Assembly: GCA_013287665.1 (NCBI GenBank)
Contig: JABDDK010000006.1
Coordinates: 186 to 51,206 of the forward strand
Length of the DNA stretch: 51,021 nucleotides
Direction: 5' to 3'
From: Alphaproteobacteria bacterium
Lineage (GTDB): Bacteria; Pseudomonadota; Alphaproteobacteria; UBA9655
Made by a program: the position numbers and the translations under genes. This document shows positions 2,300 through 37,553 of this stretch, piece by piece. Position 1 is the first letter of the stretch; every line of letters begins with the position of its first letter. The notes beneath the pieces were generated by a model. The model was given only the letters and a program-made list of their open reading frames with translations, did not search any database and had not been told where the DNA came from.

Positions 2300-3427
2300 A
2301 TGCAGCCTTCATTAAAACCTGAACGTCCAAATTTTTCCTCAGGCCCCACCTGCAAGAGGCCCAATTGGCGCATTGATAAGCTAGATCTCATAACAATCGG
2401 AAGATCCCACCGTTCGTCTCTTTGTTTGGACCGCATTAATCACTTAGTCGATCTTACGAAAAACGTTCTTGAGATACCTGAGACGTATCATGTTGGAATT
2501 CTTCCAGGGTCGTGTACAGGAGCTATGGAAGCTGCGATGTGGTCGCTTCTCGGCCCACGGCCTGTTGATTTTGTGAGCTTTGATGTGTTCGGCAATGTAT
2601 GGATTCATGACGGGCTCAAAGAACTCAAGCTCAAAAATACGCAAGTTTTAACGGCTCCTCCAGGATGTTTGCCGGATCTCTCAAAAGTAAATCCTTCACA
2701 CGATGTTGTTTTTACCTATAACGGATCAACGACGGGAGTTTGTGTACCAAATGGCGAATGGATTTCAGATAAGCGAGAAGGACTAGTAATTTGTGATGCG
2801 ATTTCGGCTCTCTTTTCCATGTCTTTCCCTTGGGAAAAAATGGATGTCGTTAGTTTTGCTTGGCAAAAGGGGTTAGGGGGTGAGGCGGCGCATGGGATGC
2901 TCGTCTTAAGTCCACGTGCTGTAGAAAGACTCGAGTCTCATCGTCCACCATGGCCTATTCCCCGTGTTTTTAGGCTTGCTGAGGAGGGTAAATTTTCAAA
3001 GCGCATATTTGAAGGAATGACGATCAATACGCCCTCAATGTTCATTATAGAAGATTTCATCGATGCCTTGACATGGGCCCAGGATATAGGTGGACTTCCT
3101 ATTTTGATTTCTCGCTCAAAAGCAAATTTAAAGGCTGTGGAAGAGTGGGTAGAGAAAACGCCATGGATAGAGTTTTTAGTTCAAGACCCAGAGATCAGGT
3201 CTTCGTCGACGATTTGTCTTAGATTTCCTGAAGATCCCGTGGGTTGGTTGTATCCTAAAGCTATTGCCAGCCTGTTAGAAGACAATGGAATTGCTTATGG
3301 GATTCTTGGACATACGTCTTCAGTACCTTGTTTGCGGATTTGGGGAGGGCCCACCGTTGAGGCGTCTGACATTAAGGCTCTTCTTCCTTGGATAACCTGG
3401 GCTTATGAACAAGTGAAATCAGCATGA
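2300..3427 (+). CDS. serC: Phosphoserine aminotransferase
   Basis: 375 residues of a class V PLP-dependent aminotransferase. It converts 3-phosphohydroxypyruvate and glutamate to phosphoserine in serine biosynthesis and can serve the analogous step of PLP synthesis. The alphaproteobacterial/archaeal SerC subtype is recognisable from the N-terminal RPNFSSGPTCKRP, the PLP-lysine region WQKGLGGEAAHGML (Lys near residue 190) and ESHRPPWPIPRVFRL. The start has no strong ribosome site and lies 5 bp after the XRE gene, which suggests translational coupling. The 3' end overlaps sfsA by ATGA. serA and serB are not nearby. Confidence 0.93.
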   Translation: MQPSLKPERPNFSSGPTCKRPNWRIDKLDLITIGRSHRSSLCLDRINHLVDLTKNVLEIPETYHVGILPGSCTGAMEAAMWSLLGPRPVDFVSFDVFGNVWIHDGLKELKLKNTQVLTAPPGCLPDLSKVNPSHDVVFTYNGSTTGVCVPNGEWISDKREGLVICDAISALFSMSFPWEKMDVVSFAWQKGLGGEAAHGMLVLSPRAVERLESHRPPWPIPRVFRLAEEGKFSKRIFEGMTINTPSMFIIEDFIDALTWAQDIGGLPILISRSKANLKAVEEWVEKTPWIEFLVQDPEIRSSSTICLRFPEDPVGWLYPKAIASLLEDNGIAYGILGHTSSVPCLRIWGGPTVEASDIKALLPWITWAYEQVKSA

Positions 3428-5417: not shown

Positions 5418-6671
5418 CTATCCCCTCTTCACCAGTCCGTGACGCTTCTTTCCGGCGGAGAGCTTGATCATATCATCATCATTAAAAGACGTGAGAGTGA
5501 GGGTGAGGAGCTCATCTGTAATGGGTGTATCGTTAAGGCGGGCGCCACCGCCCTCGATCAATCGACGCGCTTCTCCCTTAGATCCTGTTAAATTTAAGCG
5601 ATGAAATAGGTCAGTTACGGAGACGCCCGCCTCGAGCTCCGCATCACTTAACAGAAGGGTCGGAAGGGCCGCTTCATCGAGACTGGCACCTTGTACCTCA
5701 AACAGTTTTGCTGCTGTTTCTCGGGCAGTCTGAACGGCTTCAGGCCCGTGAATAAAGAGGGTGACAGCATCCGCAAGGATCTTCTTGGCTTCATTAATCT
5801 CAGCCCCCTCAAGCTTTTCAAGGCGCTTAATTTCATCAAGGGGAAGATTGGTGAATAGTCTTAAAAAGCGACCCACATCCGCATCATCCGTATTGCGCCA
5901 GAACTGCCAAAAATCGAAGGGGGGCAGCAGATCGGCATTCAACCATATCGCCCCTTTTGAGGACTTGCCCATCTTGGCGCCACTCGCCGTTGTGATCAGA
6001 GGGGTTGTAAGACCGTAAACCGTTTTGTGGGTCACGCGTCTGACCAACTCAACGCCGTTAATGATATTTCCCCATTGATCAGATCCTCCTATTTCAAGAA
6101 GACATCCATAACGCTTATAAAGTTCAAGGAAATCATAGGCTTGCAGAATCATATAATTAAATTCAAGAAACGTCATTGGCTGTTCTCGCTCAAGACGCAA
6201 GCGGACGCTTTCAAAACTGAGCATGCGATTGACCGTGAAATGATGGCCAAAATCTCTTAAAAAAGCTGGATAATTTAGAGTATCAATCCAATGGGTGTTA
6301 TTGAGCAAGACCGCATCCTGAGGACCAGTTCCAAAGGTGACGGCTCTTTCAAAAATCCGGGATAAACTGATGATGTTTTTGTCAATTTCAGCATCATCTA
6401 AAAGCTTGCGCGATTCGTCTTTGCCTGAGGGATCCCCAATCTTTGTTGTCGCCCCGCCTAAGAGAACAAGCGGACGATGGCCACATTTTTGCAGCCAATA
6501 CAATAGCATAATCTGAACGAGATTCCCGACATGAAAGCTTGGGGCCGTCGCATCAAATCCGGTGTAGGCAGTGATGGGGCCTTCTGCCATCTTATCGTCA
6601 AGAGCTTCCAGGTCCGTTCCTTGATGGATAAACCCTCTCTCTTGAAGTATCTTTAAAAACTCGGACTTCAT
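5418..6671 (-). CDS. tyrS: Tyrosyl-tRNA synthetase
   Basis: 417 residues; charges tRNA-Tyr in the cytoplasm. The class I signatures are FHVGN (HIGH-type, near residue 48) and KMGKS (KMSKS-type). The specificity region [18 protein letters not shown] and a C-terminal S4-like RNA-binding domain ([20 protein letters not shown]) are present. The start overlaps phoU by 4 bp, so it appears to be the last gene of the pst-phoU operon, an unusual partner for phosphate genes. Confidence 0.97.
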
Positions 6672-11499: not shown

Positions 11500-11549
11500 G
11501 GTAATAATTATTACCACTTTAGGTGATAATCGGTAATAATTTTTACCAC
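11500..11549. repeat. Direct-repeat pair at the 3' border of the AAA/DUF4143 ATPase
   Basis: Two 18-bp units, GGTAATAATTATTACCAC (11500-11517) and GGTAATAATTTTTACCAC (11532-11549), lie 32 bp apart; each is itself near-palindromic. The pair ends directly next to the ATPase stop codon at 11550. The same pair with the same spacing and orientation occurs at 12881-12930 on the other side of the gene. Confidence 0.9.
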
Positions 11550-12851
11550 TTACTTCTGGTTAAGCAAGAAGCGCCAAATGGGTATAACTTCTATCCATCT
11601 GCCCTCGATGTGTATCTTATCTTCCTCGTTTCGAGTGACAATGATACCAGAATCTAAGTTTAATTCTTCCATAGCCTCAACTAATGCTGAAACTTCTCGC
11701 TTACGCGTTTGATCATTCGCTAAAGTTTCACACACTTGTACAAGCATCTTTGTTCTACCTTGAGTTTGAACAATAAAGTCAACTTCGCGGCCGCTCTTCG
11801 TTTTGTAATAAAATATGTTTTGAAAAACGCTTCTTAAAGAGATAAACACCAAATTCTCAAGTAGATGCCCTGAATTAACAAGAATTTTTGATGAGATAGA
11901 CGTAACGAAGGCATGGTCTATGCAATAGATTTTCTTAGGGTTTGCTTTCCTTCGTGAAAGTGATGCGTCAAAAACACTTACGGTGAATAAGAAATATGCA
12001 TCTTCAAACCAATCTACATAGGATGAAACGGCTGATTTAGGCGCTTTATGATGTAAGGATTGTAAATAACCTGTCAAACTGTTGATTGAGTAAAGGGATG
12101 CAGTCGTATCGATTAATTTATAGGCCAAATCCATGACGGCATTTGGATGGGGAATGTCATAACGTTCAACCAGATCACGATACATAATTGCTTGAAAATA
12201 GTCTTGATGAATTTTGGTTCTCAAGTGTTGACTGAGACCAATCACTTCAGGAAACCCTCCTGATTCCCAATACTGTTGAAATCCCTTCTGAACAAGGAGC
12301 CTCTTCTTGGTTGAGAGAGATTCAGCTGACTCTATTCCTTTATAGTCTAGAAATTCTTTGAAAGAGAAGGGGAATAACTCCCATGATAGTGCTCTTCCTC
12401 TCATTTGTGTGGCGATCTCTTTAGAAAGCAATTGAGCGGAAGAACCCGTAATATAAATTTCACAGTTTTCAGTCCGCTGTACTCTATCTATAAAGGCTTC
12501 CCAAGCCGGGATGACCTGGATTTCATCAAAGAAACAATAAATTTTTTCTGTCCCTTTTTTCTCGGGATAAAGAGAAAAATAGGCTTCTAGGACATTTCCT
12601 AACCCATCATGATGCAAATTATGTAAACGATCATCAAAGAAGTTCAGATATAAAATGTTATCTCGGGATACTCCTTTTTCGAGGAGAGATCTCATGACTT
12701 GAAACATGTAGGTAGATTTCCCACAACGGCGAACACCAACACAAATTGTTGCTTTTCCGGGAACAGGTTCAATCTGTGTCACCCTACTTATTCCTGTTTC
12801 AAGAGGTGTTTCTTGAAAATCCAGAATTAAGGTCTTCAATGTTTCAAGCAT
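11550..12851 (-). CDS. AAA ATPase with DUF4143 domain (AAA_14 family)
   Basis: 433 residues. The N-terminal P-loop ATPase has Walker A GVRRCGKSTYMF (near residue 40), Walker B IYCFFDEIQV and a sensor-like YITGSSAQLLSKE. The C-terminal half resembles DUF4143, including a nuclease-like SGREVDFIV...MLVQVCE in which the usual E-V-K is replaced by QVC, so nuclease chemistry is doubtful. The molecular role of this family is not established. The gene is bounded by matching repeat pairs, with the upstream pair 29 bp before the start, and seems to be a self-contained cassette between pstS and ispB. Confidence 0.9.
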   Translation of the reverse strand: MLETLKTLILDFQETPLETGISRVTQIEPVPGKATICVGVRRCGKSTYMFQVMRSLLEKGVSRDNILYLNFFDDRLHNLHHDGLGNVLEAYFSLYPEKKGTEKIYCFFDEIQVIPAWEAFIDRVQRTENCEIYITGSSAQLLSKEIATQMRGRALSWELFPFSFKEFLDYKGIESAESLSTKKRLLVQKGFQQYWESGGFPEVIGLSQHLRTKIHQDYFQAIMYRDLVERYDIPHPNAVMDLAYKLIDTTASLYSINSLTGYLQSLHHKAPKSAVSSYVDWFEDAYFLFTVSVFDASLSRRKANPKKIYCIDHAFVTSISSKILVNSGHLLENLVFISLRSVFQNIFYYKTKSGREVDFIVQTQGRTKMLVQVCETLANDQTRKREVSALVEAMEELNLDSGIIVTRNEEDKIHIEGRWIEVIPIWRFLLNQK

Positions 12852-12880: not shown

Positions 12881-12930
12881 GGAAATAATTATTACCACAT
12901 ATGAGGATTATCGGCAAGAATTATTTCCAC
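12881..12930. repeat. Direct-repeat pair upstream of the AAA/DUF4143 ATPase
   Basis: Units GGAAATAATTATTACCAC (12881-12898) and GGCAAGAATTATTTCCAC (12913-12930), 32 bp apart, in the same orientation as the pair at 11500-11549. The 14-bp spacers are also related (both end in A/T-TATC or ATAATC). The pair ends 1 bp before the ispB stop codon. It could be an operator for the ATPase gene or one end of a mobile cassette. Confidence 0.85.
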
Positions 12931-24053: not shown

Positions 24054-24148
24054 AGTGTTCAGTGTTCAGTGTTCAGAAAAAACGGTGGCTTCCCTACACA
24101 GGGATATTTTTTCTGAACACTGAACACTGAACACTGAACACTGAACAC
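24054..24148. repeat. Inverted array of the heptamer TGTTCAG
   Basis: Three tandem copies of the heptamer (24055-24076) plus A6 face T6 plus CTGAACA repeated five times (24113-24148), forming a nearly 29-bp perfect stem with a 24-nt loop (24083-24106). It begins 8 bp after the capsid stop codon. Possible roles are an mRNA-stabilising or terminating hairpin after the capsid gene, or a repeat expanded by slippage. Confidence 0.9.
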
Positions 24149-26437: not shown

Positions 26438-26746
26438 ATGAAAAAAATCTCAACTCTTGTTTTTCTTGCAGCCATCTCAGTCGGAGCAGCAGCAAGTGCA
26501 AATAACGTTAAACAACAAAACTATCTCTATTATTTAGGCGGTCAAGCACCTTGTGCGCCAGTCTGTCCTCCACCATGTGCACCAGTGTGCCCACCTCCTT
26601 GTGAGCCAGTCTGTCCGCCTCCTCCTTGTGAGCCGGTCTGTCCTCCGCCATGTGAGCCGGTCTGTCCTCCGCCATGTGAGCCAGTTTGCCCACCACCACC
26701 CTGTGAAAAGCCTTGCTGCCCACCAATTCGTGGAATCTTTGGTTAA
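26438..26746 (+). CDS. Secreted Cys/Pro-rich repeat protein, copy 2
   Basis: 102 residues from the ATG at 26438 (AAGGAAAAAAG before it). Same layout as copy 1: signal peptide (MKKISTLVFLAAISVGAAASA), NNVKQQNYLYYLGG, then a longer array of CPPPCEPVC-like units (about seven) and the conserved end CCPPIRGIFG. The DNA repeats show recent in-frame expansion of a 24-27-bp unit. Its stop codon overlaps the stop of the converging portal gene (26743-26746). It and copy 1 are clearly paralogues. Confidence 0.85.
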   Translation: MKKISTLVFLAAISVGAAASANNVKQQNYLYYLGGQAPCAPVCPPPCAPVCPPPCEPVCPPPPCEPVCPPPCEPVCPPPCEPVCPPPPCEKPCCPPIRGIFG

Positions 26747-36090: not shown

Positions 36091-36209
36091 CCTTGATTTT
36101 CGACCAAAAGCGAATCCATTTTACCTTGAAAAACGACCAAAAGTACCTTCAAGTATCCTTGATTTTTGACCAAAAATGTAGTAAAGTATCCTTGAATTAC
36201 GACCAAAAG
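36091..36209. repeat. Iteron array: four 20-bp units at exact 33-bp spacing
   Basis: CCTTGATTTTCGACCAAAAG at 36091, with related copies at 36124, 36157 and 36190. The outer CCTTGA and GACCAAAA blocks are nearly invariant and the middle varies. Starts are 33, 33 and 33 bp apart, about three DNA turns. The last unit ends 10 bp before the ATPase start codon. The 13-bp spacers are too short and too similar for a CRISPR array. It looks like a cooperative operator or recognition site. Confidence 0.92.
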
Positions 36210-36218
36210 TGAAAAAAT

Positions 36219-37553
36219 ATGAAGCGTAGCATAGACTTTTATCTTGCGAATTGGAAAGACAAAACCACAAGAAAACCACTTATCCTTAGAGGAGCTCGAC
36301 AAGTGGGAAAAACCCATGCGATTCGACGTTTTGGTGGGTCCTTCGACAACTTCGTTGAAATAAACTTTGAGAGTACACCCTCTACAAAATCTGTTTTTGA
36401 GGCTGACTTATCACCTCAGAGAATTATCCGTGATTTGGGCCTTTTAACCCAACAAACGATTACGCCTGGTAAGACTTTGTTATTTCTGGATGAGATTCAG
36501 GAACAACCGAAAGCTCTTCTCGCACTTCGGTATTTATATGAAGAGCTACCAGATTTACACGTTATTGCGGCAGGTTCCTTATTAGATTTTGCAATTGATC
36601 AGGTTGGAATTCCTGTAGGGCGGGTTGAATTCCTCTTTATGCGTCCTATGTCATTTATTGAGTTTCTCTGTGCATCGGATAACCGAGGCTTAGCAGAAGT
36701 TATATTAAATCAAAAGGCAGCCGACCCTTTACTTGAGAGCATTCACCAAAAGATTACCAGGTTATTAGGAGAGTACTTAGCAACCGGTGGAATGCCTGAG
36801 ATCATTCAACTCTGGATCAATGATCAAGACATTAATTCTGTCCTTGCGGCACAACAAAATATTGTAAATAGCTATATTCAAGATATTCCGAAATATACAC
36901 GTAAAACTCAGATTTCGACAGTCGATGTCGTTTTTAAACATATCCCTTACATTTTAGGACAGCGATTTAAAACGAATGCTATCAAAGGTGAATACCGCAA
37001 ACGTGAAATCATTCCCGCTTTAGATTTGCTTGATAAAGCTATGATTATACAAAAAATAGTTCACACGTCCGCCCAAGGACTTCCCCTTGCCGCCCAAAGT
37101 GATCTCGATAAATTTAAGCTCATATTAGTGGATTTTGCCTTAAGTCAAAGGCTCTTGAATAGTGATCAAAGAGAATGGATTTTAAATCCCAAAGAAGCAG
37201 CCATTAATAAAGGACCCGTTATTGAAGCATTCATTGGCCAAGAGCTCCTTTGTTATCAAAATCCTACAACTCCTGGAGAATTGTTTTATTGGCACCGTGA
37301 AGAGCGTAGCAGCTCAGCAGAAGTTGATTATGTCATCGCCGCGGGTCGAGAAATTCTACCTATTGAAGTCAAGAGTGATAAAGGGGGCAGTTTAAAAAGC
37401 ATGAGAGTCTTTCAAGAGACACATCCTAAGTCACCCTATGGAATTCGGTTTTCTAACCATAATTATTCCATCGTAGATGATATTCACTCTTATCCTCTGT
37501 ATGCAGCAGCTGCACTCTTTCCTGAACAACACGCTGCTCTCCTTGCTTTATAA
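36219..37553 (+). CDS. AAA ATPase with DUF4143 domain (AAA_14 family), second copy
   Basis: 444 residues. Walker A ILRGARQVGKTHAIR (near residue 30), Walker B LLFLDEIQEQPKALLALRYL, then VIAAGSLLDF. The C-terminal domain ends in an intact nuclease-like motif: WHREERSSSAEVDYVIAAGR with LPIEVKSDKGG (D...E-V-K). The overall order matches the ATPase at 11550, but the two sequences are distantly related. It is preceded by four iterons. The cellular role of the family is unknown; some members are thought to be selfish or regulatory. Confidence 0.92.
   Translation: MKRSIDFYLANWKDKTTRKPLILRGARQVGKTHAIRRFGGSFDNFVEINFESTPSTKSVFEADLSPQRIIRDLGLLTQQTITPGKTLLFLDEIQEQPKALLALRYLYEELPDLHVIAAGSLLDFAIDQVGIPVGRVEFLFMRPMSFIEFLCASDNRGLAEVILNQKAADPLLESIHQKITRLLGEYLATGGMPEIIQLWINDQDINSVLAAQQNIVNSYIQDIPKYTRKTQISTVDVVFKHIPYILGQRFKTNAIKGEYRKREIIPALDLLDKAMIIQKIVHTSAQGLPLAAQSDLDKFKLILVDFALSQRLLNSDQREWILNPKEAAINKGPVIEAFIGQELLCYQNPTTPGELFYWHREERSSSAEVDYVIAAGREILPIEVKSDKGGSLKSMRVFQETHPKSPYGIRFSNHNYSIVDDIHSYPLYAAAALFPEQHAALLAL

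Follow-up and report, generated by a model that had tools for sequence, protein, structure and literature searches.

The occurrence of four tandem repeats directly in front of a gene for a P-loop ATPase raises the question of which protein reads the repeats, and of what such reading would do to the gene behind them. The repeats occupy positions 36091-36218 of the window (the whole 51,021-nucleotide stretch of alphaproteobacterial DNA that was analysed), between a glyQ-like ORF and the ATPase gene, and each has the form CCTTGA-N5-GACCAAAA. A preliminary description had reported four units with a 33-bp period, conserved CCTTGA and GACCAAAA elements around a drifting middle, and a last unit ending 10 bp before the start codon, and all of this was borne out. 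The units start at 36091, 36124, 36157 and 36190, which is an exact 33-bp period; the pattern CCTTGANNNNNGACCAAAA is present in all four with 0 mismatches, at spacings of 33, 33 and 33; the 6 + 8 core bases are the same in every unit, and variation is confined to the N5 middle and the 14-bp spacer; and the last unit ends at 36208, leaving a gap of 10 bp before the ATG at 36219.

36091..36109, + strand: candidate operator unit 1, CCTTGATTTTCGACCAAAA, exact pattern match
36124..36142, + strand: candidate operator unit 2, CCTTGAAAAACGACCAAAA, exact pattern match
36157..36175, + strand: candidate operator unit 3, CCTTGATTTTTGACCAAAA, exact pattern match
36190..36208, + strand: candidate operator unit 4, CCTTGAATTACGACCAAAA, exact pattern match

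The best fixed lag in the 270-bp upstream region is 33, with a self-match score of 32; dinucleotide shuffles of the same region (n=1000) gave a mean of 8.4 and a maximum of 13. Questions about the organism's own genome were answered through pattern and family searches, and these gave no exact copy of the motif in its 1.58 Mb beyond the four units; less exact matches do not rise above the control level. An RNA element was ruled out by the absence of structure in the array region (z -0.23) and of any Rfam match found there. The array does not have the form of a CRISPR array either, since it consists of a 19-bp core, a 14-bp spacer and a degenerate middle, as against unique spacers of about 25-40 bp accompanied by cas genes. 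Other repeats occur elsewhere in the window: the partly complementary heptamers AGTGTTC (3 copies) and CTGAACA (5 copies) lie beside a phage capsid gene at 24054-24076 and 24113-24148, and a tandem 24-bp repeat of 6 copies lies near a phage portal gene at 26547-26706.

The gene behind the array encodes an ATPase fused to a nuclease, which may be divided as follows.

36219..37553, + strand: AAA_14/DUF4143 ATPase-nuclease (P0001), 444 aa, PDC-S01 family (Pfam, PADLOC, AlphaFold)
36219..36959, + strand: P-loop ATPase and helical parts, residues 1-247, with Walker A GARQVGKT and Walker B LLFLDE (invariant columns in alignment A2)
36960..37163, + strand: winged-helix-like region, residues 248-315, the candidate repeat reader (AlphaFold model; best predictor of motif similarity)
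37164..37550, + strand: PD-(D/E)XK nuclease domain, residues 316-444 (DUF4143 match, alignment A2)

The AAA_14 and DUF4143 domains score 77 and 82 bits, both above the curated Pfam cut-off, and the PADLOC PDC-S01 profile PDLC04788 matches residues 1-419, nearly the full length, with an E-value of 1.2e-135. By sequence the protein is thus a member of PDC-S01, a PADLOC candidate single-gene defence comprising COG1373-type ATPases with AAA_14 and DUF4143 domains. Columns G30, K31, D91, E92, E336, D370, E383 and K385 are invariant or nearly invariant in alignment A2, so that the Walker A and B motifs and the PD-(D/E)XK site are intact. According to the accessible text of PMC12988326, PDC-S01 is a candidate defence and the fourth most common in prokaryotes, with 29,494 bacterial and 9,986 archaeal copies; the accessible text of that paper and of PMC13356809 mentions no operator, repeats, regulation or experiment for it.

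No solved structure of a family member was found by a profile search of PDB sequences. The AlphaFold model of P0001 (pLDDT 96, pTM 0.94) places residues 1-315 closest to the Walker-type ATPase 2QEN (Z 17.2) and to SSO1545, 2FNA (15.9), with further matches to the plant NLR RPP1 (15.0) and to CED-4 (14.9), and Foldseek returned Orc1/Cdc6 bound to origin DNA at the second rank. Foldseek matches to p97, FtsH and other AAA proteins were set aside, as they reflect the common P-loop core. In published work the NB-ARC domain of the plant NLR Rx1, which binds and bends DNA, and Orc1/Cdc6 are both DNA binders (PMC4599002), and DNA binding by P0001 is plausible for this reason. These proteins resemble P0001 in being related P-loop ATPases with a winged helix; P0001 differs from them in lacking an origin context, in its fused nuclease domain and in having its sites in its own promoter. 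The gene lies beside glyQ/glyS on a chromosome-like contig; the + strand immediately behind it bears no partner gene, and no Rep gene adjoins the array or P0001.

If the repeats belong to this gene, they should recur in front of its relatives. A search with a profile (A1) of five clade members yielded 80 loci, from bacterial genomes of over 15 phyla and from seven viral contigs; among the groups represented are Dependentiae, Chlamydiota, Legionellaceae, Acidobacteriota, Bacteroidota, Spirochaetota, Aminicenantes, Elusimicrobia and Omnitrophota. In a test set of 84 relatives with usable upstream sequence (32-55% identity), and with a self-match score of at least 14 as the threshold for an array, 65/84 upstream regions passed, compared with 2 in shuffles, and 58/84 passed at a lag of 31-34. 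The arrays are specific to the family: at lag 31-34 the same threshold was reached by 0/84 regions inside the gene, 0/82 downstream regions and 3/207 other neighbouring ORFs, and the three positive neighbours are themselves ATPase-nuclease genes, two of them AAA_14/DUF4143 and one AAA + PDDEXK_9, the last adjoining a second copy of its neighbour's array. Some clade members have no detectable array, and some low scorers, such as L154, still hold two degenerate units. The period is fixed while the sequence drifts, since the unit sequence varies widely among relatives (GCCTTGTATTTTTGACA, TTGGATTTTGTCCAA, CACCCCCCGTAAAATAGCCAAA, TTTTCTGCAAAAATGCAGAAAA) and the period stays at 32-34. All 5/5 plasmid-borne relatives examined, chosen from Chlamydiota, Pseudomonadota, Fusobacteriota and Bacteroidota, have a repeat, with a spacing of 32-33 bp in four and a pair at 66 bp in the fifth. 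The relatives are solitary genes.

Neither palindromic units nor downstream arrays can be taken as a general rule. Units are palindromic in only 5 of 57 cases, though several PDC-S27 and some S01 units are palindromic, and downstream arrays fail both in the 0/82 count and in the case of P0002, described below. At one locus (L164) two arrays of the same motif lie 1.1 kb apart (~1796-1894 and ~2905-3003), one of which adjoins an AAA + PDDEXK_9 gene; the interval between the two arrays contains a VapC-like PIN gene. The closest relatives of P0001 (L147-L155, 48-55% identity) are mostly from Dependentiae, Chlamydiota and Legionellaceae; since these are groups known for amoeba-associated life, the distribution suggests gene exchange in that niche.

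The organism's own genome offers a comparison among paralogues. Five DUF4143 genes were found in it, and upstream repeats precede 4/5 of them, with sequences that differ and periods that are nearly equal: 33 for P0001, about 33 for AAAACAGnnnnCTGTTTT units, 32 for GGGAATGCTATTCC units and 32 for GTGGTAATAATTATTACC units. The fifth, the divergent L005, has no upstream repeat. The GTGGTAATAATTATTACC units belong to the other DUF4143 gene of the window.

11550..12851, - strand: second AAA_14/DUF4143 gene (P0002, PDC-S01; Pfam, PADLOC)
12881..12930, - strand: two units GTGGTAATAATTATTTCC and GTGGAAATAATTCTTGCC (12881-12898, 12913-12930), 32 bp apart, upstream of P0002
11500..11549, - strand: two more units of the same motif, GTGGTAATAATTATTACC and GTGGTAAAAATTATTACC (11500-11517, 11532-11549), 32 bp apart, directly after the P0002 stop codon

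A different, 32-bp repeat had been ascribed to this gene earlier; the two upstream units agree with that account, which had missed the second 32-bp pair behind the stop codon. The GTGG motif thus flanks P0002 with two units on each side, and elsewhere in the genome only weak 3-mismatch matches to it occur. The downstream pair (GTGGTAATAATTATTACC-type) lies upstream of a PstS-like gene and is absent in a 75%-identical orthologue, L140. Three ATPase_2 genes of the same genome also carry repeats: L262 (G000:C38, upstream of 1486), which is PDC-S27 by PADLOC, carries in its promoter a 55-bp palindromic unit in 3.3 nearly identical copies (score 102), and, among the other PDC-S27-type genes, L285 has a 55-bp pair and L297 has two inverted repeats of one sequence, recognized by eye.

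Arrays also extend to other clades. Among DUF4143 promoters from the window's relatives and a phylum sample, 34/122 score at least 14, against 0/122 shuffles, with lags grouping at 22-25, 31-33 and 53-64. The period class requires 8 changes on the protein tree versus 19.5 for shuffled labels, with 0/200 shuffles as low, although these labels include a p60 for L038/L122 that may belong to a divergent PDC-S27-type neighbour using a common array, and a p23 for L140 that stemmed from an unrelated upstream repeat. ATPase_2-type genes have lags of 51-56 in 9/18 cases, and no shuffle reached an equal score; no array was seen in the two AAA-ATPase_like (PF09820) genes with usable upstream sequence, a sample of two genes only. 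The sister family PDC-S27 (ATPase_2 PF01637 + PD-(D/E)XK) accordingly resembles PDC-S01 in the idea of its architecture and in having upstream arrays, often of palindromic units, but it is a different sequence family with a period of 51-56 bp rather than the 32-33 of the P0001 clade. In one genome a DUF4143 gene (L122) and an ATPase_2 gene (L291) diverge from one common array of TGCACATAATC palindromes (G002:C30, ~6160-6290). The genes can be numerous in small genomes: G021 has 24 DUF4143 matches and G028 has 22, both genomes being below 2 Mb, with some matches in tandem.

The position of the repeats relative to the promoter bears on what they do. Where units of the CTTG type occur in the clade, 12 loci have a TATAAT-like hexamer that starts exactly 8 bp ahead of a unit, versus 0.42 expected, and on this ground the array is locked to the promoter. 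The -35 element (TTGAnn) is supplied by the preceding unit, 17 bp from the -10, as can be read directly in L172 and L180. The same phase places the boxes of the window.

36159..36164, + strand: putative -35 box TTGATT inside unit 3, 17 bp before the putative -10, placed by the phase of the relatives; 4/6 to consensus
36182..36187, + strand: putative -10 box TAAAGT, exactly 8 bp before unit 4, an offset as in the 12 clade loci; 4/6 to consensus

These boxes are weak, with 8/12 consensus bases, and are placed by homology to the relatives; because only 4/6 of its bases fit the consensus, the -35 box falls below the scanner threshold. The units that precede the -35 would not be transcribed from the array-embedded promoter, and this placement, together with the absent RNA structure and Rfam match, suggests that a protein binds the DNA at the promoter. 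The repeats of the L002 subclade stop just upstream of the -35 box, an arrangement which activation would fit too.

The identity of the reader can be approached through the relation between motif and protein. The motif tracks with the protein: motif similarity among relatives rises from 0.29 at about 40% protein identity to 0.61 above 70%. The winged-helix region (residues 248-315) gives the best correlation with motif similarity, with a partial correlation of 0.143 given the rest of the protein (p=0.002); the helical region lies in between (0.108, p=0.012) and the ATPase domain shows none (-0.036, p=0.75). This lends correlative support to the ATPase itself as the reader. A scan for co-variation of the motif with single columns was not significant after permutation; the highest permutation z in that scan, which was not significant overall, fell on residues 364 and 366 of P0001, which are variable and lie beside the nuclease active site.

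The explanation that best fits these results is that the array is a self-operator bound by the downstream ATPase-nuclease, mainly via its winged helix, so as to give autoregulation; a probability of roughly 0.7 may be assigned to this reading, in which binding and repression are both inferred. Each 33-bp unit would be a binding site for the protein encoded just downstream, read mainly by the winged-helix region. The unit spacing would set neighbouring protomers side by side on roughly one DNA face, where they may bind cooperatively; the suggestion that all units share one face is consistent with the data, since 32-33 bp is about three helical turns. The gene's own sigma-70 promoter would be embedded in the array, with the -35 in the penultimate unit and the -10 directly before the last, and since it is embedded, occupancy should exclude RNA polymerase and would hold a potentially toxic nuclease at a low level. 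If the protein were pulled off the array or titrated, expression would rise. Lying across the promoter of the gene it precedes, the array probably puts each protein in charge of its own expression.

It is unlikely that a separate host regulator uses the array as its operator instead and that the ATPase does not bind there. Binding by the ATPase itself is a prediction, and a promoter just downstream of the repeats, as in the L002 subclade, would suit such a regulator; against this, a solitary gene keeps its array across more than 15 phyla and on plasmids, paralogous ATPase genes of one genome have different motifs, and similarity between motifs goes with that of the ATPase's winged-helix region. 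Distinctly unlikely is a reading in which the array serves chiefly as a functional DNA ligand or sensor and less as a simple operator, the protein being parked on it in an inactive state until loss of the complex (through invader DNA degradation or titration) releases an active ATPase-nuclease. The NB-ARC/STAND-like fold without an evident sensor domain, the conserved nuclease residues, the listing of the family among candidate defences in the accessible text of PMC12988326, arrays of more units than simple repression seems to need, and the extra arrays distant from the promoter at the P0002 and L164 loci would all be in keeping with it, but promoter locking already accounts for the array, and the distal arrays are rare and are not kept in the 75%-identical orthologue.

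The preliminary description had proposed cognate iterons, possibly autoregulatory or partition-like, with repeats of 31-34 bp upstream of homologues that would track sequence and clade. Such repeats are present and do track, so the cognate repeats are strongly supported by the 58/84 relatives and by the tree, and promoter phase-locking (12 boxes versus 0.42) favours the autoregulatory reading, while the sense of an iteron as a replication element finds no support. That the ATPase and array segregate or replicate DNA is very improbable: an ATPase with tandem repeats, a fold related to Orc1/Cdc6 and plasmid-borne relatives would be expected of such a system, but the gene sits beside glyQ/glyS, the relatives are solitary, neither a Rep nor a ParB partner was seen, the several genes within a genome differ in motif, and the arrays are promoter-locked. 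Repeats that arise by chance, composition or at the RNA level and have no function in DNA are hardly credible; AT-rich regions do yield weak self-matches in shuffles, but the controls from shuffled, coding, downstream and neighbouring sequence give values near zero, which refutes this account statistically, there is no RNA structure, and the upstream units precede the -35 box.

Repeated sites overlapping the promoter that drives expression of their own binding protein are found in toxin-antitoxin and restriction-controller operators and in parC/iteron arrays. The self-operator proposed here differs from these in that a single gene is involved, its presumed effector being itself the regulator, and in that the period, from 23 to 64 bp, depends on the clade while the sequence drifts fast. 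No description of arrays or regulation of DUF4143/COG1373 genes was found in the titles and abstracts of the open-licence PMC literature, where DUF4143 appears in one paper and COG1373 in seven, so although tandem autoregulatory operators are already known, clade-typed, rapidly drifting arrays before PDC-S01-type genes appear to be unreported there. A wider and doubtful conjecture is that NLR-like (STAND) ATPase-nucleases use the private array as a sensor on which they are stored inactive, that disturbance by an invader derepresses the gene and frees active nuclease, a putative link to anti-phage activity, and that array-reader pairs diversify and so insulate paralogues.

A private array precedes most examined members of the clade and many related genes. 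For many PDC-S01 proteins a cognate DNA sequence and a regulatory circuit can thereby be predicted, which offers experimenters a likely DNA ligand, and the arrays form a natural set of protein-DNA specificity pairs from which a recognition code could be learned. Prokaryotic relatives of the NLR/Apaf-1/Orc ATPases would, on this prediction, be linked to sequence-specific DNA binding.
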